Position numbers and translations under genes: made by a program
From: Clostridia bacterium
GTDB lineage: Bacteria > Bacillota > Clostridia > Christensenellales > Aristaeellaceae
Reading direction: 5' to 3'
Assembly (NCBI GenBank): GCA_017550745.1
Contig: JAFZOG010000050.1
Span: 1-63,876 of the forward strand
Length of the DNA: 63,876 nt
Shown here: piece after piece, positions 3,851 to 63,875 of the stretch
Numbering within the stretch: the first letter of the stretch is position 1
How the letters are laid out: each line of letters begins with the position of its first letter
Notes under the pieces: generated by a model
What the model was told of the DNA's origin: nothing
Database searches by the model: none
What the model saw: only the letters and a program-made list of their open reading frames with translations

Positions 3851-5236
3851 ATGGGCTACACAGTAGAAAAAATTTCTGGCAACCAAGTGAAAATCAGCTT
3901 TGAAATCGCTTCCGAAAAATTTGACGAAGCGGTGCAGAAGGCTTATCTGAAAATCCGCGGCCGCATCGCGGTGCCCGGCTTCCGCAAGGGAAAAGCGCCC
4001 CGCCGCCTGATCGAAAGCATGTATGGCGAAGGCGTGTTTTATGACGACGCGTTTGATATTCTGTTCCCTTCCGAATACGAAGCCGCTGTCAAGGAAAACG
4101 ACCTGCAGGTGGTGGATCGCCCGGAAGTGGACGAAATGAAGCAGATCGGCGTCGGCAAGGATCTGCAGTTCTCTGTCAAAGTGTACGTGAAACCCGACGT
4201 GGAGCTGGGCAATTACAAGGGCCTGAAAGCCACCAAGTATGTGCACAAGGTGACTGATGAAGAGATCGACAACCGCATCCAGCAGGATGTGGACAAGGCT
4301 ACCACCATGGCGGACGTGACGGACCGCGCTGTTGAAAAGGGCGACACTGTGAACCTGAATTACGCCGGCACGGTGGATGGCGTGGCCTTTGAGGGCGGCA
4401 CCGCGGAAAACCAGACCCTGGAAATCGGCTCGGGCCACTTTATCCCCGGCTTTGAAGAGCAGATGATCGGCATGGGCATCGGCGAGGAAAAAGACCTGAA
4501 CGTCAAATTCCCCGAAGAATACCATGCTGAAAACCTCAAGGGCAAGGACGCCGTGTTCCATGTGAAGGTGAACAGCATTCAGGCTAAGGTCGTGCCCGCG
4601 CTGGATGATGATTTTGCCGCCGATGTCAGCGAGTTTGACACCTTTGCCGACTACAAGGCCAGCATCGCCAAGGAACTGACCGACCGCGCCGAAAAGAACG
4701 CTGCCACCCAGCTGGAAAACGAGCTGGTGCAGCAGGCTGTGGATGCCGCCGACTGCGACATTCCCGACGCCATGATCGAGGACGAAATCGATCTGATGAT
4801 CCGTGAGTTGAAGTTGCGCATGATGTACCAGGGCCTCAAGTATGAGGACTATCTCAAGTACACCGGCCAGAGCGAGGATCAGGTCAAGGAAATGTACCGC
4901 CCCGAAGCCAAGAACCGCGTCAAGATGCAGCTGGTGCTGGACGCTGTCATCAAGGCAGAAAACGTGGAAGTGACCGAGGAAGAAGTGGAAAAAGCCACCG
5001 CCGAGGAAGCTGAACGCAACGGCCGCGAAGTGGAAGAATTTAAAAAGACCCTGAACGACCGGCAGAAGGATTATCTCAAGGACAACGCCAAGATCCGCAA
5101 GGTGGTGGACATGATCGTGGCCAGCGCCGAAGTGGAGGTCAAGGACGAAGCGGACCGCATCGATGCCGCTGAAACCCTGAAAGCCGTAGAAGATGCGGCC
5201 AAGGCTGTTGCCGAAGAGGACGAAAAGGAAGAATAA
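3851..5236 (+). CDS. tig: Trigger factor
   Basis: The ribosome-associated chaperone and peptidyl-prolyl isomerase, 461 aa. The start is the ATG at 3851, with GGAGGG 8 bases upstream; the in-frame GTG at 3842 overlaps that site. The N-terminal ribosome-binding domain carries the signature GFRKGKAPRRLIE, which contacts protein L23. An FKBP-type PPIase domain follows at about residues 155-245 (KGDTVNLNYAG and FIPGFEEQMIGM), then the helical substrate-cradling C-terminal domain. The acidic tail after about residue 430 is longer than in Bacillus. The gene stands immediately upstream of clpP and clpX, the classic order linking nascent-chain folding with ATP-dependent proteolysis. Confidence 0.97.
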   Translation: MGYTVEKISGNQVKISFEIASEKFDEAVQKAYLKIRGRIAVPGFRKGKAPRRLIESMYGEGVFYDDAFDILFPSEYEAAVKENDLQVVDRPEVDEMKQIGVGKDLQFSVKVYVKPDVELGNYKGLKATKYVHKVTDEEIDNRIQQDVDKATTMADVTDRAVEKGDTVNLNYAGTVDGVAFEGGTAENQTLEIGSGHFIPGFEEQMIGMGIGEEKDLNVKFPEEYHAENLKGKDAVFHVKVNSIQAKVVPALDDDFAADVSEFDTFADYKASIAKELTDRAEKNAATQLENELVQQAVDAADCDIPDAMIEDEIDLMIRELKLRMMYQGLKYEDYLKYTGQSEDQVKEMYRPEAKNRVKMQLVLDAVIKAENVEVTEEEVEKATAEEAERNGREVEEFKKTLNDRQKDYLKDNAKIRKVVDMIVASAEVEVKDEADRIDAAETLKAVEDAAKAVAEEDEKEE

Positions 5237-5306
5237 TTTTTTTCCTTCCGCATAGTTTCCTTCTCGCCGTCATATAATCATGGCGGATGAACGGAATGCC
5301 ATAAGA

Positions 5307-5342
5307 CGCAGACTGTCGGGCTTCCGGCCTTGGCAGTCTGCG
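5307..5342. promoter_or_regulatory. Hairpin in the clpP leader
   Basis: A perfect 9-bp inverted repeat (CGCAGACTG at 5307-5315, CAGTCTGCG at 5334-5342) lies 40 bases before the clpP start. A TATAAT box is at 5273-5278 but has no clear -35. No T-run follows, so it is not an ordinary terminator; it may be a regulatory or mRNA-stability structure. Confidence 0.5.
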
Positions 5343-5381
5343 CAGTTCGTTTTATCCCGAATCCAGGAGGACAACGGAAAT

Positions 5382-5969
5382 ATGTCTTTGATTCCTTATG
5401 TGATCGAACAGACCGCTCATGGCGAGCGCTCTTACGATATTTATTCCCGGCTGCTCAAAGACCGGGTGGTGTTCCTGGGCAGCGCCATTGACGACCAGGT
5501 GGCCAACGCTGTGGTTGCCCAGCTCCTGTTTCTGGAAACAGATAATCCGGACGCGGATATCAACCTGTATATCAACAGCCCCGGCGGCTCCGTGACTGCC
5601 GGCATGGCGATTTTCGACACCATGAACTATATCAAGTGTCCCGTGCGCACAGTATGCGTAGGCCTTGCGGCTTCCATGGGGGCTTTCCTGCTCATGGCCG
5701 GTGAAAAGGGTAAGCGGCTGGCGCTGCCCAACAGCGAAGTGATGATTCACCAGCCCTCCGGCGGCGCGTCCGGCCAGGCGACGGATGTGACCATTCACGC
5801 GGAATGGCTGCTGCGCACCAAGAATAAAATGAACGGGCTCATGGCTGAAATGACCGGCCAGCCCCTGGAAAAGATCCAGCGCGACGTGGAACGGGATTAT
5901 TTCATGTCCGCCCAGGAAGCGCTGGCATACGGCATCATCGACGAAATTTATCAGCCCCGCCGGAAATAA
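5382..5969 (+). CDS. clpP: ATP-dependent Clp protease proteolytic subunit
   Basis: A 195-aa serine peptidase that forms the tetradecameric ClpP barrel. The ATG at 5382 is chosen because AGGAGG lies 11 bases before it and the product then has the family's usual length and N-terminus ([10 protein letters not shown]). The catalytic triad is visible: Ser98 in GLAASMGAF, His123 in MIHQPSGG and Asp172 in ERDYF. SPGGSV is the oxyanion-stabilising loop. The gene is followed 25 bases later by clpX, which encodes its unfoldase partner. In Firmicutes this protease degrades regulators, misfolded proteins and stalled-translation products. Confidence 0.97.
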
Positions 5970-5994
5970 AGCCGGAAGAAAAAATGAGGTAAAC

Positions 5995-7299
5995 ATGGCA
6001 AAGGATGAGATTGGTTCCCGAAAACTGCGCTGCTCCTTCTGCGGAAAGACCCAGGATCAGGTGCGCCGGATTATCGCCGGTCCGGGAGCTTATATCTGCA
6101 ATGAGTGCGTCGCGCTGTGCCAGGAGATCGTATCCGACGATACGGATATCGTGTCTCCCGCCGCAGAGGTGGGGCAGATTCCCACTCCTTCCGAAATGAA
6201 GGAAGTGCTGGATCAATACGTGATCGGCCAGGATCGCGCCAAGCGGACGCTGTGCGTGGCGGTTTACAATCACTATAAGCGTATCAGCGCGCCGGTGAAA
6301 AAGGACGGTGTGGAGCTTCAGAAGTCCAATATTCTGATGGTTGGCCCCACCGGCTGCGGCAAAACGTATCTGGCGCAATCATTGGCCCGGATCCTGAATG
6401 TGCCTTTCGCCATCGTGGACGCCACCACCCTGACCGAAGCGGGCTATGTGGGCGAGGATGTGGAAAACATCCTGCTTCGCCTGATTCAGGCTGCCGGGAA
6501 CGACATTCGCTCCGCGCAGCGCGGGATCATCTACATCGACGAAATCGACAAGATCGCCCGAAAAGGCGAGAATGTTTCCATCACCCGCGATGTAAGCGGC
6601 GAAGGGGTGCAGCAGGCGCTGCTGAAAATCCTGGAGGGCACCATTGCCAACGTGCCGCCCCAGGGCGGACGCAAGCACCCAAACCAGGAATGCCTGCGCA
6701 TCGACACCACCAACATCCTGTTTATCTGCGGCGGTGCGTTCGACGGGCTGTCCCGGCTGATCGAGCAGCGCATCGGCAAAAAGTCCATGGGCTTCGGTGC
6801 TGACCCGCAGGGAAAGTCGAAGCAGAACGTGGGCGATGTCCTACGCCAGATGCGTCCGGAGGATTTGCTGAAATTCGGCTTGATCCCCGAATTCGTCGGC
6901 CGTCTGCCCGTCACCGTCACGCTGGACGCCCTGGATGAAGAAGCGCTGGTGAAAATCCTTACCGAACCAAGAAACGCCCTGGTAAAGCAGTATCAGAAAC
7001 TGGTTGACCTGGACGGCGCTGACCTGGAGTTTGAGCAGGACGCCCTGGAGGCCATTGCGAAAAAAGCCATCGAGCGAAAGAGCGGCGCCCGCGGGCTGCG
7101 TGCCATCATCGAGGACGCGCTGCTGGATACCTTGTTCGACCTGCCCGGTCAGGAAAACGTGCGCAAGTGCGTGATTACGAAAGACGTGATCGAGAACGGT
7201 GCAAAGCCTGTACTGGAGCTGGTCGATTTGCCCGTCAAACAACCGACCCACCGCGTCCGCCGTCCTAAAGCTCTGCCTGATGAACCGACGGCCAGCTGA
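5995..7299 (+). CDS. clpX: ATP-dependent Clp protease ATP-binding subunit ClpX
   Basis: An AAA+ unfoldase of 434 aa that feeds substrates to ClpP. The N-terminal zinc-binding domain has four cysteines (13, 16, 35, 38: CSFC and CNEC). Walker A is GPTGCGKT at residues 117-124 and Walker B is [10 protein letters not shown]. The GYVGEDVEN pore-loop segment and the C-terminal sensor-2 motif ([11 protein letters not shown]) are intact. AATGAGGT provides the ribosome site before the ATG. The gene ends the tig-clpP-clpX group and is followed by a terminator. Confidence 0.97.
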
Positions 7300-7316
7300 T
7301 CAAAATCATGATTTTG

Positions 7317-7349
7317 CCCGAAGATGCCCAAAAGGCCCTTCGGGTTTTT
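7317..7349 (+). terminator. Rho-independent terminator after clpX
   Basis: A CCCGAAG / CTTCGGG stem, with a GGC/GCC inner part possible, is followed by TTTTTG 18 bases after the clpX stop. Confidence 0.85.
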
Positions 7350-7434
7350 GCGTACAGAGAGGAACTTGGGATGAAGAAAGCAGAAAAACTGCTTTTCTTC
7401 CCATGCCATTTGAGAAGAAGGAGGATTTCGGAGC

Positions 7435-8289
7435 ATGAAAACCGGTCTGGTCATGGAAGGCGGAGGCATGCGGGGCATGTTCACCTGCGGCGTCATCGAT
7501 GTGCTGATGGAAGCGGGGATCTCCTTCGACGGCGCGGGCGGCATATCGGCAGGCGCGGTATTCGGATGCAATTTCAAATCCCGCCAGATCGGACGCCCCA
7601 TCCGGTACAATATGAAATACTGCCGGGACAAACGGTATAAAAGCATCCGTTCCCTGATCACCACCGGCGATCTGTACGGCGTGGATTTTTGCTACCGGGA
7701 GCTGCCCGACGTGTTAGATGTATTCGACAGGAGAGCGTTCAGGGATAACCCGATGGCTTTTTTCGTTGGCGCGACAGATGTGGACACGGGCAGCATCGTC
7801 TATCATCTGTGTACGGACGGGGAAAGCGCGGATATGCAATGGATGCGCGCATCGGCTTCCATGCCGCTGGTCAGCCGCGCTGTTGAAATCGACGGGCACC
7901 GCCTGCTGGACGGGGGCGTGGTCGATCCGACTCCATATTTCTATATGAAGGCCATGGGGTATGGCAGGAATGTGGTCATTCTGACTCAGCCAAGGGAATA
8001 CCGAAAGGGAAAAAGCGCCGTCATGCCCTTGATGGCGCTGGGTTTGCGGAAATACCCCAAATTGGCGGAAGCGATGAAAAGAAGGCCGGAAAAATATAAT
8101 GCCCATATCGCCGCTGTACGCGCGGCCGAAAGGGCCGGCGAATGCCTGGTCATTTGCCCGCCGGCGCCGCTTCCTGTGCACCGGACGGAAAGCGACCCTA
8201 AAAAGCTGGAACAGGCATATCAGATCGGGCGTTCAGAAGCAGAGAAACGCTTAGGGAAAATTCGGGCTTTTGTGGGAATATCCGGATAG
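7435..8289 (+). CDS. Patatin-like phospholipase family protein
   Basis: A 284-aa cytosolic acyl hydrolase of the YjjU/YlbK-like patatin group. The oxyanion loop is GGGMRGMFTCG at residues 10-19, and the nucleophile is Ser38 in GISAG (GxSxG). The catalytic Asp159 lies in the DGG motif. Together these form the Ser-Asp dyad of patatins, which release fatty acids from membrane phospholipids. GAAGGAGG lies about 10 bases before the ATG. It stands alone, after the clpX terminator and before the strong promoter of the transport cluster. The biological substrate is not evident. Confidence 0.92.
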   Translation: MKTGLVMEGGGMRGMFTCGVIDVLMEAGISFDGAGGISAGAVFGCNFKSRQIGRPIRYNMKYCRDKRYKSIRSLITTGDLYGVDFCYRELPDVLDVFDRRAFRDNPMAFFVGATDVDTGSIVYHLCTDGESADMQWMRASASMPLVSRAVEIDGHRLLDGGVVDPTPYFYMKAMGYGRNVVILTQPREYRKGKSAVMPLMALGLRKYPKLAEAMKRRPEKYNAHIAAVRAAERAGECLVICPPAPLPVHRTESDPKKLEQAYQIGRSEAEKRLGKIRAFVGISG

Positions 8290-8344
8290 ATGTATTTTAA
8301 AAATTTACAAAATAAAGACAACTATTACAATTCTGTTACTTGAA

Positions 8345-8373
8345 TTGACATAAGAATTTTTAATCAGTATAAT
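8345..8373 (+). promoter_or_regulatory. Consensus sigma-A promoter of the carbohydrate-uptake cluster
   Basis: A perfect TTGACA, a 17-nt spacer and a perfect TATAAT. The leader before the first start codon is about 105 bases. It contains a stem pairing the A-run/GC stretch near 8384-8399 with GGCGCTTTTTT near 8417-8427, which resembles an intrinsic terminator and could act as an attenuator. Confidence 0.88.
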
Positions 8374-8484
8374 GACTTGGTAAAGAAAAAAAGCAGCCAA
8401 TTTCTACAAAAAATGTGGCGCTTTTTTGATTTTCGCTTCGCGCATACAATACGCTCTAACAAACGAATTAGGAGAGTCATGCCC

Positions 8485-11370
8485 ATGCGAAAAAAAGGTT
8501 TTGGATGGTTAATCGGTATTCTTTGCCTGGCGGCGGCGATCGCTTTGATCGTGCTGCTCGGCGGCGGAAGCCAGGACTTCCACGCCAAATACGACGGGGT
8601 TGATCTGTCCGCCGACGTAACAGGCATGGGCAGGGAGGATACCTACGCCAACTACCTGCTCAAATACGCGGACGTGCCCAGCGGGGAAACTGTGATCCCG
8701 GTGGATGTGACTGCCTTCGAGGGCGACGCGGAAATCCGAAACGAGGATGGAGTTGCCTGCGTCTATACCGCCGACGGGTCGTTTGTTTCCTGGAAGGTGA
8801 ACGTCGAAAAAACCGGCATGTACAATATCCGGCTGGACTATTTGACGACCCAGGCCCGCGGCGTGGACATCGAGCGGGAACTGTACATTAACGGCGAGCT
8901 GCCGTTTTCCGGCGCGCGCTCTTTGTGTTTTACCCGCCTGTGGACGGACGCCGCGCCTGTGCGCCAGGATAACCAGGGCAACGATATCCGCCCTACCCAG
9001 ACAGAGGTGTTCGACTGGCAGCAGGTGCGCTGCAAAGACGATATGGGCTACGTGATCGAGCCGTATCAGTTTTACTTTGAAGCGGGGGAAAACACCTTAT
9101 CGCTGAAAGCTGTCAACGAGCCGATGATGATCCGTTCCCTGGAACTGACGCCTGTGGAATCTTTTATTTCCTATGAAGAGTATAAAGCAGCCCAGCCCCA
9201 GGTTCAAATGAGCGAAACAGCAAAAGCCTGGCAGATGACCGTTCAGGGAGAATCGTCCACCCTGCGTTCGTCTCCTTCTTTATATGCCCGCTATGACCGT
9301 TCCTCTCCCGCCACCGTGCCCTACAGCGTTACCAATACGGTGCTGAACTATATCGGCGGCGACCCGTGGAATAATGCGGGACAATGGATCGAATGGGAAT
9401 TCGAAGTGCCGGAGGACGGCTATTATACCATTTCCATCAAGGGCCGCCAGGCATATCAGCGCGGCTCCGTTTCCAGCCGCAGCGTGTATATCGACGGGGA
9501 GATCCCCTTTGACGCCATGAGCGTGGTGCCCTTTGACTATAATACGTCCTGGGATATGCGCACGCTGGCCGACGACAGCGGCACGCCTTATCAATTCTAT
9601 TTGGCCGCGGGAAAGCACACCATCCGCATGGAAGCCACCCTGGGCAGGATGGGCCCGATTTTGCAGCAGATAGAGGACAGTATTTACAGGCTGAACCTGA
9701 TCTACCGCAAGATCCTGGTGCTTACAGGCGTAAATCCCGACCGCTTCCGCGACTATGGCCTGGAAAAGGTGTATCCCGAAGTGATCGAAGCCATGGACCT
9801 GGAAAGCAAACGCCTGTATAAGCTGGTGGATGACACCGTGGCCATCACGGGGCAGAAGAGTGACCGCGTGGCCGTGGCCCAGACCTTGGCTGTGCAGATG
9901 GAAGGATTCGTGGCGCACACCGAGCGCATCACCCAGTCCTTCTCCAATTTCAAGGATAATATTACCAGCCTTGGCACCGCTATGCAGAACATGTCCGAAA
10001 CCAAGCTGGACGTGGATATGCTGGTGATCAGCGGCGAAAAAGCCCAGCTGCCCGAAGTGAAGGACGGCTTCATCGAAAAGACTGCCCATGAGATCCGGTC
10101 CGCCGTTGCTTCCTTTACGGTGGACTACAACTCCCTGGGCGACGTGTACGACGATAACGACGATAAGCTGATCGAGGTATGGATCACCACGGGCCGCGAT
10201 CAGAGCACCGTGCTGAAAACCATGATCGACGATACCTTTACCCCCAATACCGGTATTCATGTCAACGTGAAGCTGGTGCTGCCCGATACCATTCTCACCG
10301 CCGTGGTTGCGGGCAACGGGCCCGATATCGTGCTGAGCCTGGGCAGCTGGTTCCCGGTGAACTACGCCATGCGCAACGCGGTCGAAGACCTGACCCAGTT
10401 TGCGGACTTCGACGAGGTGGTGAAGCCCTTCTATCCCAGCGCCCTGGCGTCCATGCGCTACAACAACGGCGTGTACGCTCTGCCGGAGACCCAGGAGTTT
10501 TCCGTCCTGTTCTACCGCGAGGATGTGCTGGAAGAATTGGGCCTGAGCGCGCCCGAAACCTGGGATGAGCTGATCGACCTGCTGCCCACCATCCAGGGCA
10601 ATAACTTGTCTGTGGGTATTCCGTATCCCGATATTACCACCGCCGACCTGTCCATCCTCAACTCCATGATCTATCAGAACGGCGGCCAGATCTACGACGA
10701 AGAAGCCAAGCGCACCCTGATCGACACGGAGAGCGGCGTTTCGGCGTTTAAGCTGTATACCTCCCTGTATAACGACTATGGCCTGCCCACGGTATATGAT
10801 TTCGTCAGCCGCTTCCGTTCCGGTGAAATGCCCATCGGCCTGGCGAGCTACAGCCAGTTCAACACGCTGGCCGTGTCCGCGCCTGAAATCCGGTCTTTGT
10901 GGAGCTTTTCCGCTTTCCCCGGCACGGTGCAGGCGGACGGCAGCGTGGACCACTCCGTGCATTGCAGCGGCCTATGCTGTATGATGATTGCTACTGATAA
11001 TGACAATGTAAAGAACAATGCCTGGGAGTTTCTCAAGTGGTGGGTCAGCGCTGACGCGCAGGTGCGGTTCGGCAGGGAAATCGAATCCGTGCTCGGTTCT
11101 TCCGCCCGCTACACCACCGCCAACCGCGACGCGCTGAAGCAATTGGCCTGGAGTGCTGACCAGCTGGCCGTGCTGGAAAAGCAAATGGCGCAGACCGTGG
11201 GCTTCCGTGAAATTGCCGGCGGATATTCCACCACCCGCCACATGACCAACGCCATCCGCCGCGTGATCAACAACAAGGAGGACGCGCGTGAAACCCTGCT
11301 TACTTACGCCCGCACGATCAACGAGGAAATCAAGGTCAAACGAAAAGAATTCAATCTGCCCCTCGATTAA
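8485..11370 (+). CDS. Membrane-anchored giant extracellular solute-binding protein with sugar-binding-like modules
   Basis: A 961-aa protein. The ATG at 8485 has AGGAGAG 8 bases upstream; an ATG at 8479 is the alternative. One N-terminal membrane segment (about residues 6-25) is followed by two similar beta-rich modules near 45-230 and 265-400. Each holds phrases such as ENTLSLKAVNEPM and GKHTIRMEATLG, typical of CBM35/galactose-binding-like folds. A helical, coiled-coil-like stretch runs from about 400 to 540. The last 400 residues are a type-1 sugar-binding lobe pair (GNGPDIVLSLGSW, GVYALPETQEFSVLFYREDVLEELG, ETWDELIDLLPTIQ). It heads a polycistron with two permease pairs, so it probably captures an oligosaccharide. 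Ordinary binding proteins have about 420-450 residues; this one is more than double. Confidence 0.85.
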   Translation: MRKKGFGWLIGILCLAAAIALIVLLGGGSQDFHAKYDGVDLSADVTGMGREDTYANYLLKYADVPSGETVIPVDVTAFEGDAEIRNEDGVACVYTADGSFVSWKVNVEKTGMYNIRLDYLTTQARGVDIERELYINGELPFSGARSLCFTRLWTDAAPVRQDNQGNDIRPTQTEVFDWQQVRCKDDMGYVIEPYQFYFEAGENTLSLKAVNEPMMIRSLELTPVESFISYEEYKAAQPQVQMSETAKAWQMTVQGESSTLRSSPSLYARYDRSSPATVPYSVTNTVLNYIGGDPWNNAGQWIEWEFEVPEDGYYTISIKGRQAYQRGSVSSRSVYIDGEIPFDAMSVVPFDYNTSWDMRTLADDSGTPYQFYLAAGKHTIRMEATLGRMGPILQQIEDSIYRLNLIYRKILVLTGVNPDRFRDYGLEKVYPEVIEAMDLESKRLYKLVDDTVAITGQKSDRVAVAQTLAVQMEGFVAHTERITQSFSNFKDNITSLGTAMQNMSETKLDVDMLVISGEKAQLPEVKDGFIEKTAHEIRSAVASFTVDYNSLGDVYDDNDDKLIEVWITTGRDQSTVLKTMIDDTFTPNTGIHVNVKLVLPDTILTAVVAGNGPDIVLSLGSWFPVNYAMRNAVEDLTQFADFDEVVKPFYPSALASMRYNNGVYALPETQEFSVLFYREDVLEELGLSAPETWDELIDLLPTIQGNNLSVGIPYPDITTADLSILNSMIYQNGGQIYDEEAKRTLIDTESGVSAFKLYTSLYNDYGLPTVYDFVSRFRSGEMPIGLASYSQFNTLAVSAPEIRSLWSFSAFPGTVQADGSVDHSVHCSGLCCMMIATDNDNVKNNAWEFLKWWVSADAQVRFGREIESVLGSSARYTTANRDALKQLAWSADQLAVLEKQMAQTVGFREIAGGYSTTRHMTNAIRRVINNKEDARETLLTYARTINEEIKVKRKEFNLPLD

Positions 11371-24071: not shown

Positions 24072-24275
24072 CGTAAGAATGCTCCTGGGGTGTTCGCCAG
24101 TTTTCTGTTTTTACCCACATTTCATAAATCGGAACCTGGGCCAGGAAACCGGATGTCATGCCCCCGTGCTCCGCACGCCAGGGGACGGCAGAAAGTTTCC
24201 GCCGGGCACCGGCCTGCTTAACATAGCGGGTGAAAAAATAGAGGACAGCGGCATCTTGGGACATTCGTTTTTAGA
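24072..24275 (+). ncRNA. ssrS: 6S RNA
   Basis: This 390-base stretch without a protein gene (23974-24360) holds a 6S RNA. It is about 200 nt long, the normal size. Blocks match the general 6S pattern: GTGTTCGC and CCAG near the 5' end, ATTTCATA in the bulge region, GCTCCGC in the apical arm and GCGGCATCT near the 3' end. The ends pair (GAATG at 24077-24081 with CATTC at 24262-24266, and CTCC with GGGA), closing the long hairpin that mimics an open promoter. 6S RNA binds the housekeeping RNA polymerase and represses it in stationary phase. Identification is from memory of the conserved blocks and pairing, not a covariance search. Confidence 0.85.
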
Positions 24276-46931: not shown

Positions 46932-46956
46932 TCAATCCTTTCAGCGGTGTGGCGGA

Positions 46957-47127
46957 TTATTCTTGAGCGGGAGCGCCAACGGGGCAGGTTTCAGCGCAAA
47001 CGCCGCATTCAATGCACTTATCGGCATCGATGATGTACTTGCCGTCGCCTTCAGAAATCGCTTCCTGGGGGCATTCCGCAGCGCAGGCGCCGCAAGCGAT
47101 GCATTCGTCAGAAATCTTGTAAGCCAT
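46957..47127 (-). CDS. 2[4Fe-4S] ferredoxin, 56 aa
   Basis: A clostridial-type ferredoxin. The frame is short but unmistakable: CIACGACAAECP at residues 9-20 and CIECGVCAETCP at 38-49 each supply four cysteines for a cubane cluster. GGAGGTG lies 7 bases before the ATG. Codons are strongly biased, as expected for an abundant electron carrier. It carries low-potential electrons between enzymes such as pyruvate:ferredoxin oxidoreductase, hydrogenase and the NfnAB complex encoded later in this window. It has its own promoter (47171-47199) and terminator. Confidence 0.97.
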   Translation of the reverse strand: MAYKISDECIACGACAAECPQEAISEGDGKYIIDADKCIECGVCAETCPVGAPAQE

Positions 47128-47170
47128 ATAATTGCACCTCCATGATTGATCGTGTTTTCACGTCATGTGT

Positions 47171-47199
47171 ATCATATCATTATCTGAAAAACATTGCAA
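47171..47199 (-). promoter_or_regulatory. Ferredoxin promoter
   Basis: On the minus strand, TTGCAA, a 17-nt spacer and TATGAT, 44 bases before the start. The rest of the gap up to 47381 is very AT-rich. It holds an AGACAAAAA / TTTTTGTCT inverted repeat (47334-47373), possibly the end of the transpeptidase transcript. Confidence 0.75.
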
Positions 47200-47381
47200 G
47201 TACGGAAAGATATATTTGTATTATTTGCATAAAATGTATATATAGTATTCATATATTATTATCATTAGTATCCGCTTACTAATGGAGTTTTCTTTTGCTT
47301 TCATGTAAATTACGGTTATGAATAGACCAATAGAGACAAAAAATAAGACAGAATAACACCCGGCTTTTTGTCTGATATAGA

Positions 47382-50323: not shown

Positions 50324-50352
50324 TTGACAATCATGCCAAATAAGTATAAAAT
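50324..50352 (+). promoter_or_regulatory. Promoter of the pilin-like operon
   Basis: A perfect TTGACA, a 17-nt spacer and TAAAAT. This is the only clear promoter before a run of about nine genes ending at 56741. Confidence 0.85.
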
Positions 50353-50358
50353 TTGAAA

Positions 50359-50507
50359 GAAATTAGGTTTTTCCCATCTTTGGAAAAGTGGTTGATTGTT
50401 GCTTTTTCAGAACCAAAAGCCGGAAAAAGCGGATAAAACCTGATTCGGCAAAGTATTGCCATAATGATCGGATCATCCGGCACGGACGGAAAGAAAGCGC
50501 ATGTATC
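50359..50507 (+). other. Structured leader of the pilin-like operon
   Basis: About 150 bases separate the promoter from the first likely start. Three short hairpins are visible: GCTTTTTC with GGAAAAAGC, GGCAA with TTGCC, and ATGATC with GATCAT. It does not match the c-di-GMP-I or purine riboswitch motifs that I know. Confidence 0.45.
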
Positions 50508-50777
50508 ATGTTTAGTTTAACACCAAGACAGGACGGCGCTTTCAAAAGCGGGAAGGAAACCATTTTGAACGCTGATGATAGAAAGGACGTAAAGGCTGCG
50601 TTCGAAGCGGTTCACGCTCTGAAAGGCGCTGTCGGCAATCTGTCCCTTACGCCTCTTTATCCGTCGCTCTGCGAAATGACAGAATTGGTTCACGCCGCTC
50701 AGACCACGCCCGATACAGACGCCGTTTATTCCCGGATATGCCGGGCTTCGGATCAGTTCCAGACATTAACGGATTAA
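50508..50777 (+). CDS. HPt-domain phosphotransfer protein
   Basis: A small protein, 89 aa if it starts at ATG 50508; the frame is open further upstream (ATG or GTG possible from 50388). The motif EAVHALKGAVGNLSLTPLY, with His36 as candidate phosphoacceptor, is the HPt signature (H-x-L-K-G followed by N and L). The rest is a helical bundle. HPt proteins pass phosphate between histidine kinases and response regulators. No kinase is nearby. It is followed 42 bases later by the SARP-type regulator, suggesting the two form an input module for the operon. No strong ribosome site is visible, so the start is uncertain. Confidence 0.72.
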   Translation: MFSLTPRQDGAFKSGKETILNADDRKDVKAAFEAVHALKGAVGNLSLTPLYPSLCEMTELVHAAQTTPDTDAVYSRICRASDQFQTLTD

Positions 50778-50819
50778 CCTGCTTGCATCACCTGCCAGCG
50801 CTTTGTAGAGGAGATACGA

Positions 50820-52019
50820 ATGGAACACATCGTTCAAATCAGATTATTGGGAGATTTTGACATTCTGGTCAACGGAGTACGTCAGGACAATCTTGCTGCA
50901 AAAAGCAGAAAAGGCGTTAGCCTGATGGAATACCTGATTCTTCAGCGGGGGCGGCCGGTGCCGGTTCAGCGCCTGATTCGTGAGCTTTGGAACGGCAAAC
51001 GCTATGAAAGCCCGGAAAGCGCGCTTAAGACCATGGTAAGCCGGTTCCGTGCATTGCTCAACAGCATTTATCCCGGACTTGGCGGATGCATCGTATCTGA
51101 ACAGGGCGCTTATCGGTGGATCAGCGGCGCAACGGTGCATGTGGACGTTCTGGATATGCTGGAGCTGCTTGAAAGTGTGCACGCCGATTCTACCAGAGAA
51201 GAACGGATCAAATGCTATCAGCGGGTGCTGGAACTGTATCAGGGCGATTTGTTTCAGACGGGGGATATCTGCAACAGCGCGATGCAGGTGAGTTGGCTTC
51301 ATCGGGAATTTCTTCACGCCATGTACGCATGGATTGAGCTTTTGAAGGAAACAGAAGAGTACGAGGAAATCTGCAACATATGCCGGAAAGCAAGCCAGGT
51401 GGACGAACTGGACGAGCAGCTGCATATCGAATTGATCCGGGCAATGGTGAAGATGAATTATACCTCCGAAGCGATCAAGGAGTATAAGCATGTTCCACAT
51501 ATTGAGCAGATGCTTCCGGAAACAGGGCTTGAGAAGAATATCAGCAAGGATTATCAGCAGTTAATGCACACCGGTGATTTGGTCACCCAAAGGCTGAACA
51601 TGATCCGCGAGGAATTGATGAACGAAGGCACGGAGCAGGCGGGCCCGTTTTTTTGTGATTACAATGCATTCAAAGAATTTTGCTGTATCCAGAGACGCAC
51701 AATGGAACGGCTTGGGTCGACCATGTTTCTGGGCATCATAATGATCAGCAATTCGGAAGACACAATCAGTTCAGTTGCCAGGGAAAGCGCTATGGCTGCG
51801 CTATGCGAAATCATCCGGGATAACTTACGGAAAGGAGACATCGTCACCCGCGTTGCTCCCGTCATTATTGCCATGCTTCTGCCAACGGTAAGCTATAACA
51901 GCGGTGGAATGGTCATAGATCGGATCGAAAAACTGTTCTACGAAGAATTTCCCAGCAGGGCGATTATTCTCAGCTCCCGCATTGCTCCTCTGGGCGGCAG
52001 TATCACGGAACAGAAATAA
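50820..52019 (+). CDS. SARP/BTAD-type regulator with degenerate GGDEF-like C-terminus
   Basis: A 399-aa transcription factor. Residues 1-95 form an OmpR-like winged helix (IRLLGDFDILVNG, RKGVSLMEYLILQRGRPV, ALKTMVSRFRALL). Residues 105-245 are the helical BTAD domain typical of SARP activators (YQGDLF, EYEEICNICRKASQVDELDEQLHIELIRAMVKM). The C-terminus (about 285-395) reads like a GGDEF fold that has lost its active site: IIRDNLRKGDIVTRVAPVIIAMLLP, where GG(D/E)EF should follow R. So it cannot make c-di-GMP but might sense a nucleotide or dimerise. GAGGAGA precedes the ATG. It is a good candidate for the operon's own activator. Confidence 0.83.
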   Translation: MEHIVQIRLLGDFDILVNGVRQDNLAAKSRKGVSLMEYLILQRGRPVPVQRLIRELWNGKRYESPESALKTMVSRFRALLNSIYPGLGGCIVSEQGAYRWISGATVHVDVLDMLELLESVHADSTREERIKCYQRVLELYQGDLFQTGDICNSAMQVSWLHREFLHAMYAWIELLKETEEYEEICNICRKASQVDELDEQLHIELIRAMVKMNYTSEAIKEYKHVPHIEQMLPETGLEKNISKDYQQLMHTGDLVTQRLNMIREELMNEGTEQAGPFFCDYNAFKEFCCIQRRTMERLGSTMFLGIIMISNSEDTISSVARESAMAALCEIIRDNLRKGDIVTRVAPVIIAMLLPTVSYNSGGMVIDRIEKLFYEEFPSRAIILSSRIAPLGGSITEQK

Positions 52020-52058
52020 ATAAAAGCATCGACAGCCGAAGAAGGAAGAACGTGAACC

Positions 52059-52828
52059 GTGGTGAGACGAAAAATCCTTCTGTATGCGCTTTTGGTGCTT
52101 ACAGCCGCCGGCATGATCATCATGGCGGGCACAGCCTTTGGTGATGCGAAATGGCCGCAGTCAAGCGAAAGCGGAGAAAAGACCAGCAGCAAACTGAAAG
52201 TGGATGTTGGCAATGCCAGCGAGGGATACTTTATGGCAGCCGTCACTTCAAAGAGCAAGCATAAAATGAAGCTGCGCGTGGAAAAAGACGGGACTACACT
52301 GACCTACGATCTGAATATATCCGGTACATACGAGGTGTTTCCGTTCCAGCTGGGCAGCGGTTCTTATGAGTTGTCTTTATGGGAAAACGTGTCCGGGAAA
52401 AAGTATTCGGCAGCCGGAAAGATCAAAGTGAATGTTAAGCTCAAGCGAGAGGACGGGGCTTTCCTATATCCAAACCAATATGTGAATTACCGGAAGAACG
52501 ACCAGGTGGTCGGGATGTCGCTCAAGGTATGCAGGGATAAAGAAGGCAAGGAAGCGTATACGGCCATCAAGCAATACATTGTCGAAAACTTCCGCTATGA
52601 CTATATCAAGGCGGCGACGATCCAGCCCAGCGAGCTTCCGGATATTGAAAGCTGTTTTTCTTCCAAGAGCGGGGTGTGCCAGGATCTTTCCGCGGTGATG
52701 GTCAGCATGCTGAGGGTGCAGGGGATCCCCGCGCGCCTGGTGATCGGTTATGCGGATAAGATCTATCATGCCTGGGTCGTAACCGAGGTTGAAGGAAAAA
52801 AATACTGTTTGATCCGCAGCCGCTGTAA
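52059..52828 (+). CDS. Transglutaminase-like exported protein, with a -1 frame shift at a slippery site
   Basis: A membrane-anchored protein (hydrophobic segment 6-27), with a beta-sandwich region near 45-128 and a transglutaminase-like core from about 165. Cys207 (SGVCQDLSAVM) and His237 (IYHAWV) are present. In the simple frame the protein runs on to 52910 (283 aa) and has no catalytic Asp. At 52796-52802 the sequence is A AAA AAA in exact slippery phase (GGA AAA AAA TAC). Slipping back one base reads I-L-F-D-P-Q-P-L then TAA at 52826, placing Asp252 15 residues after the His as the fold requires. The shifted product is 256 aa. Coordinates given are for the shifted form. A 1-base deletion or homopolymer error would look the same. 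Confidence 0.75.
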
Positions 52829-52890
52829 ATCATACGAAAAACGCGTCAAATTATTCCGTAGAGCGTTATTACTGACAGGCGGAAATAACG

Positions 52891-53940
52891 ATGCCCAAGA
52901 AGAATCATAATGGCCTTTCCTCCGCGGAATTAAGCAATTTCTGCGGTCAGGTGGCATTGATCCTGGAAGCCGGCCTTCCGCTGTATGACGGTATGGAAAC
53001 CTTGGCCGGGGCTGATAAAGGCAGTGAAAACGCCGATATTTATGAATCAGCCAGCAAGGGCGTTACGGAAAAAGGCTCCCTGTATGACGCGCTGAAGGAA
53101 GACGAACGCTGGCCCAAATATCTGGTGGAGATGGTTGGCATCGGCGAACGTTCAGGCCAATTGGACAAAGTAATGCGCGGGCTTGAGGTTTACTATGCCC
53201 GTGAGGACCACATCCGCTCTTCCATCGTCGGCGCAGTGACGTATCCCATGGTGCTGGGAGTTATGCTGATCGTGATCGTGCTGATCCTGCTGTGGAAGGT
53301 GCTCCCTGTGTTCCGCAGGGTATTGGCTTCCATGGGCGTCGGAATGACCGAGTCCGGCAGCATGCTGATGCAGCTTGGCGTTTCTGTGGGATGGATCGTG
53401 CTGGCGCTGGTGGCGATCATCGTGGTGCTGGTGATTGTCGGCATCGTTTTGATGCGCACCAAGTATAAGGATAAGGTCATGCAGTTTGTGAAGCTCGTGT
53501 TCCCGTCCATCAATAAGGTGAATAGCCAATTATCCGCCTCCCGCGTGGCCAGCGTGCTTTCCATGATGCTCTCGGGCGGCTTCCCCATGGATGAAGCGCT
53601 GGAAATGACCGCACATGTGCTGACAGACCGTGTGGCTGCCGAAAAGGTGGAAAGCATCCGCAAGTCTCTGAATGAAGGCAGCACCTTTGCGGAATCCGTC
53701 ACAAATGCACAGCTTTTCCATGATCTGCATAACCGCATGGTGGCGATGGGCAGCGCCACCGGGCGTGAAGACCAGGTGCTTTCCAAACTGGCTGACCTGT
53801 ATGAAGAACAGGTGGAGGACGGCATCACCCGCCTGGTGGCGATCATCGAGCCTTCGCTGGTAGCAATGCTGTCCATCGTTATTGGCGCTGTGCTTCTGTC
53901 CGTCATGCTGCCGATGGCCGGTATCCTGTCCAGCCTGTAA
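52891..53940 (+). CDS. Type II secretion/type IV pilus platform protein (PilC/GspF family)
   Basis: A 349-aa inner-membrane protein with the two repeated T2SSF domains of the family (about 10-130 and 215-335). Each has FCGQVALILEAGLPLYDGMETL-like or VASVLSMMLSGGFPMDEALEM-like openings. Three membrane segments are predicted (near 113-135, 165-195 and 315-345). PilC-like proteins anchor the pilus motor ATPase and the assembling pilin at the membrane. It overlaps the zero-frame end of the transglutaminase gene by 20 bases, or lies 62 bases after its shifted stop. The ribosome site is weak (GGCGGAAA). Confidence 0.93.
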   Translation: MPKKNHNGLSSAELSNFCGQVALILEAGLPLYDGMETLAGADKGSENADIYESASKGVTEKGSLYDALKEDERWPKYLVEMVGIGERSGQLDKVMRGLEVYYAREDHIRSSIVGAVTYPMVLGVMLIVIVLILLWKVLPVFRRVLASMGVGMTESGSMLMQLGVSVGWIVLALVAIIVVLVIVGIVLMRTKYKDKVMQFVKLVFPSINKVNSQLSASRVASVLSMMLSGGFPMDEALEMTAHVLTDRVAAEKVESIRKSLNEGSTFAESVTNAQLFHDLHNRMVAMGSATGREDQVLSKLADLYEEQVEDGITRLVAIIEPSLVAMLSIVIGAVLLSVMLPMAGILSSL

Positions 53941-53990
53941 TCAACGATTCAGCATGCTTTCCGCACAGACAGGACAAAAAGGGGGAGCCT

Positions 53991-54308
53991 ATGAATCGAA
54001 AGGACATCACGAAAATAGTTGCCATTGTAGCGGTTCTTGCGCTGGCTGTGCTCCTAGTGAACCGGATCGATACGGCGCACGAAACCGCAGAAACGGAAAT
54101 TGTCCGGGATGCAATAAAGAATGCTGCCATCACCTGTTATGCCGTGGAAGGCGCGTATCCTGATGACATTTCTTATTTGCGGGAAAACTACCATCTGGCA
54201 TACGATACAAACAGATACATGGTCACATACGACGCCTTTGCATCCAATATGATCCCCGATATCTTTGTTACGGAAAGAAACACAGAAAAGGGGGATGAAG
54301 CGTTTTGA
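53991..54308 (+). CDS. Small pilin-like membrane protein, 105 aa
   Basis: A protein with a single N-terminal hydrophobic helix (about residues 8-24) and a soluble part of about 80 residues (CYAVEGAYPDDISYLRENYHLAYDTNRYMVTYDAF). The size, topology and location between pilC and other pilin-like genes suggest a minor pilin. It lacks the usual Gly-Phe cleavage site and Glu5, so it may not be processed by a prepilin peptidase. AGGGGGAG precedes the ATG. Its stop overlaps the next start as TTGA. Confidence 0.75.
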   Translation: MNRKDITKIVAIVAVLALAVLLVNRIDTAHETAETEIVRDAIKNAAITCYAVEGAYPDDISYLRENYHLAYDTNRYMVTYDAFASNMIPDIFVTERNTEKGDEAF

Positions 54309-54789
54309 TCTCAAAAAAGCCTCCATCTCATGCCATTTCCGGCGTGTTCGTATTTTTGGTGCTGGGCATTTTCGCGGTGTTTTCCACAGTCATGGTGCTG
54401 CTGGGCGCGCGCGTCTAAAAAGCACGGCGGACCGGGCAGCCGAGCATAACGCCTATCGAATCGGTATGGCGTATATCCGCAGCATGGTACGCGGCAGCGA
54501 TATGGATCAGTGCATCCATGTGGAAAACTTGGACGGTATCCCAGCTGTATCCATGAGAAACGTTTATGACGGAGACACATATGTGACACACCTGTATGTC
54601 TACGACGGCAAGCTGCGGGAATGGTTTGCCGAAGAATCGGAAGCATTTGCCCCCGAATTTGGCGAATCGGTCTGCGCCATGGATGAAATGAACGCGGAAA
54701 TAACGGGACAGCTGCTGCATGTAGCGTTGCGCGCCCAGGATACCTGGACGACAGTGGAAATTGCGCTGCGTTCTGAGGTGATAGAATGA
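54305..54789 (+). pseudogene. DUF4860-like pilin-type protein, disrupted by a -1 frameshift
   Basis: The start is TTG 54305, overlapping the previous stop. The first frame gives a typical pilin-like N-terminus (HAISGVFVFLVLGIFAVF, then STVMVLLGARV) and hits TAA at 54416. The frame one base back continues without a break (LKSTADRAAEHNAYRIGMAY) to 54789, with a soluble domain containing NLDGIPAVSMRN and THLYVYDGKLREW. The two halves belong together, resembling DUF4860 proteins of clostridial pilus-like operons (from memory). One base seems to be missing next to an A-run at 54417-54421. No canonical slippery heptamer is in phase here, so mutation or sequence error is likelier than programmed shifting. 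Confidence 0.75.
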
Positions 54790-55187
54790 AATCAGGGAGC
54801 CGCAGCAATGCGCTGCTTGTAGAGCTTTTGATCGTGGTGATGTTTTTCATGCTGTCGTCCACGGTGCTGCTGGATTTATACGCTACCGCCAGGAACCAGA
54901 GCGTGAGGGCCGGTTTGCTGACGACTGCGCTGAACGAATCCCAGAACGTTGCCGACCGGCTGTATACCGCCGACGACGCCGAAGCCGCACTGCGGGAAAT
55001 GGGCTTTGAACAGCGGGAAGGGGATTGGTACCGGGCAGGCGGCACCTATTACGGTATCATCGTCATGGATTCCTCCGGCACGATGGGTCCCGGATACATG
55101 CGGCGGTATATGGTCGCCCCGATGGAAGATGAAAATACGTTCCTTTTCCAGCTGGAAGTGGAGCGGTATGAGGAGGCGCAGCCGTGA
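54786..55187 (+). CDS. Prepilin-like protein, 133 aa
   Basis: The N-terminus SNALLVELLIVVMFFMLSS closely mimics a type IV prepilin (normally GFTLIELLIVV), with the Glu retained but the Gly replaced. The helix is followed by a soluble domain with TARNQSVRAGLLTTALNESQNVADRLY. It overlaps the preceding gene (ATGA) and the next (GTGA). It is probably a minor pilin of the system. Whether it is cleaved depends on a prepilin peptidase not found in this window. Confidence 0.8.
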   Translation: MKSGSRSNALLVELLIVVMFFMLSSTVLLDLYATARNQSVRAGLLTTALNESQNVADRLYTADDAEAALREMGFEQREGDWYRAGGTYYGIIVMDSSGTMGPGYMRRYMVAPMEDENTFLFQLEVERYEEAQP

Positions 55188-55702
55188 AACAGAAAAGCAG
55201 CATCAGCTTCGGCCCCGGCGCGGCGTCCCTGCTGCTGATCTTCGTGGTGCTGGCCATGAGCGTGCTGGGCATGCTGTCGCTGATGAACAGCAGAAACGAC
55301 GTGCGGTTGAGCGAAAGAAGTGTATCGGTGATGGAAGCGGTGTATTTCCTGAACGCAAAGGCAGAGGAGAGCCGGGCGCGGGCGGATGCAGTGCTTTGTG
55401 AATTGGCGCAGAAAGCAGACAGCACGGAAACCTATCTGTCTTTTGCGAAAGAAGCATTTACGGGTGAGATGAAATTGAAGGGGAATGTGCTTTCCTGGAA
55501 TGAGACGGACGGATTCCGCACCATTCACTGCGCTTTGGAATTACTGCCTTTGAACGCCGGGGAAAGAACGCGCTGGGTTCAGCATACGCTGATCGTCAAG
55601 ACGGCGGAATCATCTGGCGAAAATGAATCGGACACGTTTTATGGCGATGGCGTTGACTGGGAATCAGCAGAGACGGAAGAAGCGTGGATAATCGATGATT
55701 GA
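55184..55702 (+). CDS. Pilin-like membrane protein, 172 aa
   Basis: Starts at GTG 55184. It has one N-terminal membrane helix (FGPGAASLLLIFVVLAMSVL, residues 9-28), preceded by Gly/Pro as in PilX- or GspK-like pseudopilins. A soluble, acidic C-terminal part follows. It overlaps the pilT start by 8 bases. It is the last of four small helix-tail proteins in this operon. Confidence 0.75.
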   Translation: MKQKSSISFGPGAASLLLIFVVLAMSVLGMLSLMNSRNDVRLSERSVSVMEAVYFLNAKAEESRARADAVLCELAQKADSTETYLSFAKEAFTGEMKLKGNVLSWNETDGFRTIHCALELLPLNAGERTRWVQHTLIVKTAESSGENESDTFYGDGVDWESAETEEAWIIDD

Positions 55703-56741
55703 ATTATTGAAAAAAGCCGCACAGCTGGGCGGCGCGGATGTTTTTGTCATTCCCGGCGCGGCGGTTTCAGTGAAGGTAAACAATTCTCTGGTAAAGCTGA
55801 CGGACAGTATCATGCTGCCCCCTGACACAGAAAAACTGGTGCAGCAGATGTATGATATTGCGCGCAGGGACATCAGGCATCTGAATCAGGCAGGGGATGA
55901 CGACTTCTCTTTTGCCATCAAGGAAGTGAGCCGATTTCGCTGCAACGCGTATAAGCAGCGCGGTTCAATGGCGGCGATCTGCCGTATCGTAAATTTTGAA
56001 TTGCCGGATCCCAAGGATATGCATATTCCAGACATCGTGATGTCCCTGTTTGAGATGCGCAGCGGCATGATCCTTGTAACAGGGCCTGCGGGCAGCGGCA
56101 AGAGCACTACCCTGGCATGCCTCGTCAACAAAATCAACGAAACGCGGGAAGGCCATATCGTTACAATCGAAGACCCTATCGAATATCTGCACCGCCACAA
56201 AAAATCCCTGGTGAGCCAGCGCGAAGTGCCAAACGACGCCGCCACATTCAGCCGCGCTCTCCGTGCCTCGCTGCGTCAGGCTCCCGATGTGATCATGCTT
56301 GGCGAAATGCGCGACCTGGACACGATCCGGACTGCCATCACCGCTTCTGAAACCGGCCATTTGCTTCTGTCTTCTCTGCATACGATCGGCGCGGCAAAAA
56401 CGGTTGACCGTATTATTGACACGTTCCCGGCTGAACAGCAGACTCAGATCCGCGTGCAGCTCTCCATGGTGCTGAAGGCTGTCGTTTCCCAACGCCTGAT
56501 TCCCACAGTGGATGGAAAACGCATACCGGTGTTTGAAGTAATGACGGTGAACCCGGCTATTCAGAATATGATCCGCGACGGACGCACGCATCAGATTGAC
56601 AACGTGATTTACGGCGGCAGCGATAAAACCATGCTGTCCATGGATGCCGAGCTGGCGCGCTTGGTTCGCGAAAAACGAATTACCCGCGATATCGCGATCA
56701 TTTATGCCGCGAACCCGGAAACACTCTCCAAACGCATCTGA
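55695..56741 (+). CDS. pilT: Type IV pilus motor ATPase PilT
   Basis: A 348-aa hexameric ATPase. Walker A is GPAGSGKST at residues 130-138, the Asp box is TIEDPIEY, Walker B is VIMLGEMRD, and the His box is LSSLHT near 226-230. The C-terminal AIQNMIRDGR corresponds to the AIRNLIRE motif that separates PilT (retraction) from PilB (extension). It is the only motor ATPase in the operon. In classical pili PilT disassembles the fibre; here it may work in both directions or serve a short pseudopilus. It is followed by a bidirectional terminator. Confidence 0.95.
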   Translation: MIELLKKAAQLGGADVFVIPGAAVSVKVNNSLVKLTDSIMLPPDTEKLVQQMYDIARRDIRHLNQAGDDDFSFAIKEVSRFRCNAYKQRGSMAAICRIVNFELPDPKDMHIPDIVMSLFEMRSGMILVTGPAGSGKSTTLACLVNKINETREGHIVTIEDPIEYLHRHKKSLVSQREVPNDAATFSRALRASLRQAPDVIMLGEMRDLDTIRTAITASETGHLLLSSLHTIGAAKTVDRIIDTFPAEQQTQIRVQLSMVLKAVVSQRLIPTVDGKRIPVFEVMTVNPAIQNMIRDGRTHQIDNVIYGGSDKTMLSMDAELARLVREKRITRDIAIIYAANPETLSKRI

Positions 56742-56751
56742 TTACAAAAAG

Positions 56752-56785
56752 CCGTATTGGACGAAAGGGTCCATACGGTTTTTTC
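56752..56785. terminator. Bidirectional terminator between pilT and the Cof-type phosphatase gene
   Basis: CCGTA-T-TGGAC pairs with GTCCA-TACGG (one bulge). It has TTTTTT on the plus side and a T-run on the minus side. Confidence 0.88.
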
Positions 56786-63517: not shown

Positions 63518-63741
63518 TGAAGCTAAAAGATATTTTCTGCCTGTTTGCGGGCATCGCATTGTTAGCGCTGGCTTTTCTTTTAAAAGGGTGTGGCGAAGAA
63601 AGCGGCGATCTTGTGCAGAAGAAAAGTGCAATGAGCCATCGAAATGAGCAGGTATCGACTGATCATTCCGTTTATCCCTTGAATGATTGCAAGAAAAATC
63701 GGGAACAAGAATACCCTGCCATTGAAACGTTTTTCAACTAG
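63514..63741 (+). CDS. Small possible lipoprotein, 75 aa
   Basis: A short protein with an N-terminal hydrophobic stretch (about 5-22) ending LLKGC, a loose lipobox that could allow lipidation at Cys26. The rest is polar. The start overlaps the YkvI-like stop, indicating one transcript. Nothing else is recognisable, and the gene could be a fast-evolving accessory protein. Confidence 0.6.
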   Translation: MMKLKDIFCLFAGIALLALAFLLKGCGEESGDLVQKKSAMSHRNEQVSTDHSVYPLNDCKKNREQEYPAIETFFN

Positions 63742-63766
63742 GGGGTGTTCACACTACCCGAAAAGA

Positions 63767-63875
63767 GCTGATTCTGAGATGATTTTTCGTCAGGCAAGGC
63801 GCATTTCCGCAGGAATACTGGCGGTATTTCAAGGAAATGCAACGCAGCATGACGGAAAATCAACCAGAATTCAGC
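63767..63875. repeat. Long composite inverted repeat at the window edge
   Basis: Four nested arms are complementary in order: GCTGATTCTG with CAGAATTCAGC (one bulge); TGATTTTTCGTCA (63780-63792) with TGACGGAAAATCA (63850-63862); GCATTTCC (63801-63808) with GGAAATGC (63833-63840); and AATAC with GTATT around the apex. It forms a cruciform-like or long RNA hairpin of about 110 bases, with no open frame. It may be a MITE-like, mobile palindromic element or a structured RNA. The window ends one base after it. Confidence 0.7.

Follow-up and report, generated by a model that had tools for sequence, protein, structure and literature searches.

The window analysed here, the whole 63,876-nucleotide contig JAFZOG010000050.1 of a Clostridia bacterium (assembly GCA_017550745.1), carries at positions 50388-56741, all on the + strand, nine consecutive genes for an HPt protein, a SARP/BTAD regulator, a transglutaminase-like protein (TG), a PilC-type platform protein, four small proteins (s1 to s4) and a PilT-family ATPase. 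We regard the core of this putative operon, from TG to PilT, as a conserved machine derived from type IV pili that apparently works without an extension ATPase or a prepilin peptidase, and its function is probably some non-pilus mechanical job at the cell surface. The source genome (G000) is a metagenome-assembled genome (MAG) of 3.75 Mb in 186 contigs, with a completeness of 88.8% and a contamination of 7.45, of which the window is contig C85; in what follows, G numbers denote genomes and L numbers loci.

Conservation and spread of the module

The gene content and order given in a preliminary description of this DNA were borne out by profile matches (Pfam, TIGR), and the order of the core holds far outside the window. 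A PilC-profile search of genome contigs yielded the best 80 of 324 relatives, selected on PilC alone and called the named loci below; these best 80 are labelled Clostridia or groups inside it, and many bear ruminant gut names. All seven core genes stand in the order TG-PilC-s1-s2-s3-s4-PilT in 73 of the 80. Five of the seven incomplete loci end at a contig end (L055, L064, L105, L111 and L113), and the remaining two, L107 and L124, have no adjacent PilT. In further sets, which overlap (L130 is identical with L034, and L123 contains L039), the full order was present in 14 of 18 loci of the window and its taxonomic order, 8 of 19 loci of the class and 6 of 9 loci from the other classes of the phylum. 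The core order is thus kept in related genomes, and the objection that the arrangement might not be conserved fails. DUF4860, the family of s2, had matches in 44 of the 393 genomes sampled from the class (42 above the cut-off) and in 13 of the 398 sampled from the phylum (12 above it).

The genes of the module are tightly packed, the median intergene gaps in the 95 complete loci running from -13 to 28 bases, and dN/dS did not exceed 0.54 in the pairs computed, with values of 0.02-0.26 for PilT and PilC; one TG pair and one s2 pair were saturated. The preliminary description had also placed one promoter and one terminator around the genes. This could not be upheld, as promoter-like sites (8 against 8.6 expected) and terminator-like sites (12 against 9.5 expected) occurred at chance level; the putative operon is supported instead by its close or overlapping genes and by the conserved order. 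A separate observation concerns four loci of one genus (f49/g100; L170, L171, L174 and L183), in which the module has no adjacent PilT; in G333, a PilT lies about 42 kb off.

The copy in the window itself is not wholly intact. When the proteins of a near relative, L054, were used as tblastn queries, a frame change appeared near the C-terminal end of TG and another just past the membrane segment of s2, while in L054 each of these genes occupies a single frame. With the + strand proteins of L054 as queries, SARP, PilC, s1, s3, s4, PilT and the upstream flanking genes of the window all proved to lie in a single frame. The two breaks may represent either decay or an assembly error.

One ATPase and the missing partners

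In G000 the operon PilT is the only T2SSE ATPase above the cut-off, two other candidates at 19 bits falling below it, and no match was found there for the A24 prepilin peptidase, for an N_methyl prepilin or for PilM. A standard pilus locus elsewhere in the same genome, on which the module might have depended, was therefore not encountered among the parts looked for. The proposal that PilT is the only motor of its class stands accordingly for G000, and 18 further genomes gave the same result at E 1e-12. Of the claim that PilM, PilN and PilO are all missing, the part on PilM holds in G000; PilN and PilO were not searched for.

The wider census covered 60 genomes with a module or DUF4860 match and nine more genomes of the phylum, a genome with one T2SSE match at E 1e-12 being counted as single-ATPase; the best 27 candidates per genome were scored in the 60, and all candidates in G000 and the nine phylum genomes. 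G249, which has no T2SSE match, was excluded from the peptidase count. Among the 60, A24 rose above the cut-off in none of the 15 single-ATPase genomes and in 41 of the 44 that have further T2SSE matches; among the nine, it did so in one of four single-ATPase genomes (G727) and in all five others. Pooled, this amounts to 1 of 19 single-ATPase genomes and 46 of the 49 others (Fisher p 1.9e-12, a nominal value because the genomes are related), in agreement with the claim that PilB and a prepilin peptidase are missing. Prepilins follow the same line: no N_methyl match was found in 13 of the 14 single-ATPase genomes tested, and each of the five PilB genomes tested gave five to six. A second T2SSE match at 1e-12, as a CpaF/TadA ATPase would give, was likewise absent from the 19. 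Gaps in MAGs are unlikely to be the sole cause of the missing PilB and PilD, because single-ATPase carriers assembled in 1, 2, 3 and 5 contigs (G045, G147, G029, G435) show the same absence.

Pilin-like proteins and the ancestry of the module

An N-terminal membrane span is nearly universal in the four small families (s1, 97 of 98 rows; s2, 95 of 97; s3, 95 of 97; s4, 95 of 96). The s3 family profile, which includes rows with the canonical site, matches geopilin, PilA and PilE chains (best E 7.7e-5); the profiles of s1, s2 and s4 gave no pilin match among solved structures. PilX_N matches s4 weakly, in 2 of 48 rows. Profile-profile comparisons among s1 to s4 produced short or helix-only alignments and were not used as support. 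With a mean column identity of 41%, s1 is the most conserved of the four alignments.

The pilin-like N-termini had been described as altered at the cleavage site, and this is seen most clearly in s3. Loci whose s3 carries the canonical site GF[TS]L[VI]E are here termed type B, and all other loci type A. Gly-1, Phe1 and Glu5 are present in all nine type B rows; among the 105 type A rows (near-duplicates included), Glu5 is kept in 103, and position -1 holds Asn in 78 of them but Gly in only 3. In the window, s3 likewise carries Asn at -1. Even where the genome encodes PilB and A24, as in G100, G124 and G463, type A s3 has no cleavage site. The persistence of Glu5 in the membrane segment, although the cleavage Gly has gone, favours a retained contact inside the membrane.

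Two loci throw light on the origin of the module. L181 (G169; 4650-10142) holds a full PilB-PilT-PilC operon and, after it, three pilins that each have a canonical site; among these, the s1 homologue (48 bits) carries GFTLIE and the s2 match (48 bits) GFSVVE. Among 117 s1 rows, a canonical site ahead of the membrane segment occurs in L181 only, other matches to the pattern being judged chance by their position. In the type B locus L207 (G704), an A24 gene (7962-8807) stands between s4 and TG, and both s2 and s3 have canonical sites, which suggests that the module formerly included PilD. Taken together, these comparisons establish s1 to s3, at the level of sequence, as relatives of type IV pilins. 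The L181 operon is a likely ancestral form, and the most economical interpretation is that the module descends from a full pilus operon, PilB having been lost first and PilD and the cleavage sites later, an order of loss that we infer.

The ATPase and the transglutaminase-like enzyme

The window ATPase is best described as a PilT. Its scores with other models are much lower than with the PilT family model (GspE 136 bits; PilB 123; ComGA 132.5, cut-off 300; TadA-family 41.9, cut-off 373), and among solved structures PilT chains are its best relatives. A tree of 75 ATPases placed the 41 operon PilTs of type A in one group (support 100/99) apart from the PilTs that adjoin PilB, and G127, G100 and G124 possess both kinds; the type B rows formed no single group. 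G169, the genome of L181, was counted as having a canonical pilus operon and stands outside the operon loci. The Gly-Lys pair of Walker A and the Gly-Glu pair of Walker B are present in 41 of 41 type A PilTs, and the His box and AIRNLIRE-like motifs are also kept. Four positions separate the type A PilTs (n=41) from PilB-adjacent ones (n=12), in that the type A proteins have Phe in place of the His of the SDIH stretch (39 of 41), Lys in place of Arg (37), Ile in place of Leu (all 41) and, in Walker A, Ala in place of Thr (all 41).

TG adjoins PilC in all 80 named loci. Its triad columns Cys, His and Asp are 99-100% conserved in 109 rows; in the window, the Asp part of the triad lies beyond the gene's own frame break. 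The N-terminus is hydrophobic in 104 of the 109 rows and bears a lipobox-like motif in 27. The closest solved relative is 3isr, named a putative cysteine protease (E 9.6e-6). The domain match and the triad place TG in the transglutaminase-like superfamily; the cross-linking or modification of surface proteins suggested in the preliminary description would be a putative activity.

What the module may do

As a working model, s1 to s4 would remain uncleaved, so that their short cytoplasmic leaders would hold them as membrane anchors, and their membrane helices, with the Glu5 of s3, would pack on PilC as a short mixed assembly and not as a long filament. ATP cycles of the PilT hexamer would turn PilC, the assembly would be pulled, turned over or stroked, and TG would act outside on a surface peptide or protein that this assembly presents or moves. 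We consider the chances evenly balanced that the core is a self-contained type IV pilus derivative which has dropped the extension ATPase and, in type A, also the peptidase, and which forms a short assembly worked by PilT. The further step, that it makes up a separate class of machine with uncleaved, membrane-held pilins, PilT as sole motor and an exported TG partner, acting as an ATP-driven piston or tensioner and not as a pilus, is more tentative, and we place it just below an even chance. The preliminary description had left the choice between an unusual motor and a short envelope machine. The conserved PilT-only system on which that choice was based is confirmed, and a short envelope machine seems to fit better than an unusual pilus.

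Several observations weigh against the picture of uncleaved pilins moved by PilT alone. Gly-1 is kept in three type A s3 rows (L165, L172 and L178), and G442 has a full s3 site yet no A24 was found in it. The invariant Gly of s4 sits where a peptidase would cut, so that processing by some other enzyme is possible. G727 has A24 with the operon PilT as its sole T2SSE ATPase, and G065 has an A24-like match below the cut-off (24.0 against 26.5 bits). G045, a genome in one contig without a PilB or A24 match, has three N_methyl prepilin-like proteins (loci L188, L189 and L190), and those of L188 and L190 show a canonical GFTLxE site. In four single-ATPase genomes, short matches to PilM reach 28-30 bits (cut-off 27); PilM matches in single-ATPase carriers cover about 70-110 of 340 positions, and matches over more than 230 positions are confined to PilB genomes. 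Finally, some carriers of the module have PilB and PilD, which could serve it there.

The chief rival is a true thin pilus, in which s1 would be the major subunit, the PilT-family ATPase a two-way motor comparable to CpaF in Tad pili, and an unrecognised peptidase would trim the subunits. It gains from the position of s1 after PilC and its top rank in mean identity, from the canonical prepilin that is its L181 homologue, and from the retained invariant Gly of s4. Precedents for such a motor also exist, since extension of the Vibrio cholerae MSHA pilus requires PilT (PMC9815625) and CpaF is bifunctional (PMC12019362). We nevertheless find it rather unlikely, given that 18 of the 19 single-ATPase genomes have no A24 above the cut-off and that L181 alone of the 117 s1 rows has a canonical site.

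Two other explanations appear weaker still. TG could be a cysteine peptidase standing in for the prepilin peptidase, or freeing the pilin-like proteins at the outer face somewhat in the manner of LapG, which acts on adhesins, so that the machine would load and shed surface proteins. The constant place of TG beside PilC, its conserved triad, its kinship with 3isr and the GGDEF/EAL or HPt proteins beside some copies all speak for this; yet TG also accompanies modules with a canonical s3 site (L048, L051, L180 and L207), and Peptidase_C93, the LapG family, is not among its Pfam matches, and we judge the idea improbable. Least probable in our view, and disfavoured, is that the genes are the remains of a type IV pilus operon in decay, or that they serve as an accessory retraction unit to a standard pilus encoded elsewhere in the genome. 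The frame-broken TG and s2 of the window and the carriers with PilB and PilD would suit it, but the order is common to many families and further classes, selection on the genes is purifying, the motor motifs are kept, and the module is present in genomes in which PilB was not found, some of them in the 1-5 contigs mentioned above (G045, G147, G029, G435).

Comparison with known filament systems

A 2023 review assigns a pilin, a prepilin peptidase, an extension ATPase and a platform to every type 4 filament system (PMC10191384). The generic model in another paper consists of an ATPase, a platform and a major pilin, with a peptidase possibly borrowed from another system (PMC6668835). Measured by the core of a type IV filament, the module has a platform and pilins recognised by sequence; in G000 neither a peptidase nor an extension ATPase was found, and the class III cleavage site is missing from the window s3 and from nearly all type A s3 rows.

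With the type IVa pilus the module shares the PilC platform, a PilT-family ATPase and pilin-related single-span proteins, and homologues of s1 and s2 stand inside such an operon in L181; it differs in that most single-ATPase carriers have no extension ATPase or peptidase that we could find and hardly any recognisable prepilin, and in the addition of TG. The Com pilus of monoderms (ComGA, ComGB, ComGC-GG, ComC) likewise combines one ATPase, one platform and several small pilins, whereas the module ATPase belongs to the PilT family and not to ComGA, and the Com system includes a peptidase together with an ATPase of the extension class. The Tad pilus with its bifunctional CpaF is also worked by a single ATPase, although that of the module comes from another branch. 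TadB, TadC and the TadV peptidase are further parts of the Tad pilus. The pseudopilus of type II secretion (GspG-K, GspE, GspF) resembles the module as a short assembly of several pilin-like proteins, and the module PilC scores 195.5 bits with GspF, below the cut-off of 424; GspE and a peptidase, in contrast, were not found with the module.

Two of four supposedly universal filament parts were thus not found in single-ATPase carriers, including genomes in 1-5 contigs, with one exception for the peptidase. If the piston or tensioner reading is true, it breaks the rule that a peptidase and an extension ATPase belong to every such system. The module offers a natural test of PilT and PilC acting alone, of the role of Glu5 without N-terminal cleavage, and of the conversion of filament machines to other devices, and it supplies a context for DUF4860. 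No description of DUF4860 by name, or of pili with a transglutaminase and PilT in Clostridia, was met in the literature searched, outside which lie most subscription papers and all bioRxiv preprints; nor did the top 10-20 matches of each literature listing contain a description of the TG-PilC-s1-s4-PilT module.

Gene coordinates and regulators

The genes of the operon are listed in Table 1.

Table 1. Genes of the putative pilus-derived operon in the window, with the evidence for each assignment
Gene product	Position	Strand	Evidence and remarks
HPt-domain protein	50388..50777	+	start codon uncertain; domain at about 50571-50690, motif HALKG; Pfam Hpt 23.5 bits, slightly below the 24.6 cut-off; homologues adjoin the module in some relatives
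SARP-type regulator	50820..52019	+	Trans_reg_C and BTAD (42.4 bits)
TG, exported transglutaminase-like	52059..52910	+	Transglut_core 60 bits; final part frame-broken in this assembly
PilC-type platform protein	52891..53940	+	T2SSF 142.5 bits, two matched stretches
s1, pilin-like single-span protein	53991..54308	+	family alignment; canonical-prepilin-site homologue in L181
s2, DUF4860 protein	54305..54789	+	PF16152 68.4 bits; frame-broken past the membrane segment in this assembly
s3, type IV pilin relative with Glu5 but without Gly-1	54786..55187	+	profile matches to solved type IV pilins
s4, single-span pilin-like, invariant Gly ahead of the membrane segment	55184..55702	+	family alignment; weak PilX_N
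PilT-family ATPase	55695..56741	+	TIGR01420 pilT_fam 398 bits against the 319 cut-off

HPt and SARP had been presented as members of the operon, and here the preliminary description has to be corrected, since they are not fixed members: the fetched stretch contains one or both of them in 46 of the 80 named loci, in varying positions, and one or the other also in that of 9 of the 18 loci of the taxonomic order and 5 of the 19 of the class. The C-terminal part of SARP has a weak diguanylate-cyclase match in the window (E 0.087) and, in the L053 homologue, a GGDEF match above the cut-off; it is perhaps a degenerate GGDEF domain. Directly 3' of the module, a response regulator-EAL-GGDEF protein and a periplasmic-binding-like GGDEF protein are encoded in L063 (14573-17809) and L039 (9046-10998). 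Because HPt, BTAD or GGDEF/EAL proteins adjoin many copies, a phosphorelay or cyclic-dinucleotide signals may set the expression of the module.

Other features of the window

A 6S RNA lies at 24079-24266 (RF00013, 64.4 bits). The conserved stretch 46947-47237 was considered as an RNA and rejected, since it contains a small ferredoxin-like gene on the - strand (46957-47127; 56 amino acids), named by eye from CxxCxxC, and the surrounding stretch has 91% DNA identity to L054. At the far end, 63740-63873 is 82% identical to the non-collinear positions 4597-4733 of L054 and is perhaps a dispersed repeat.

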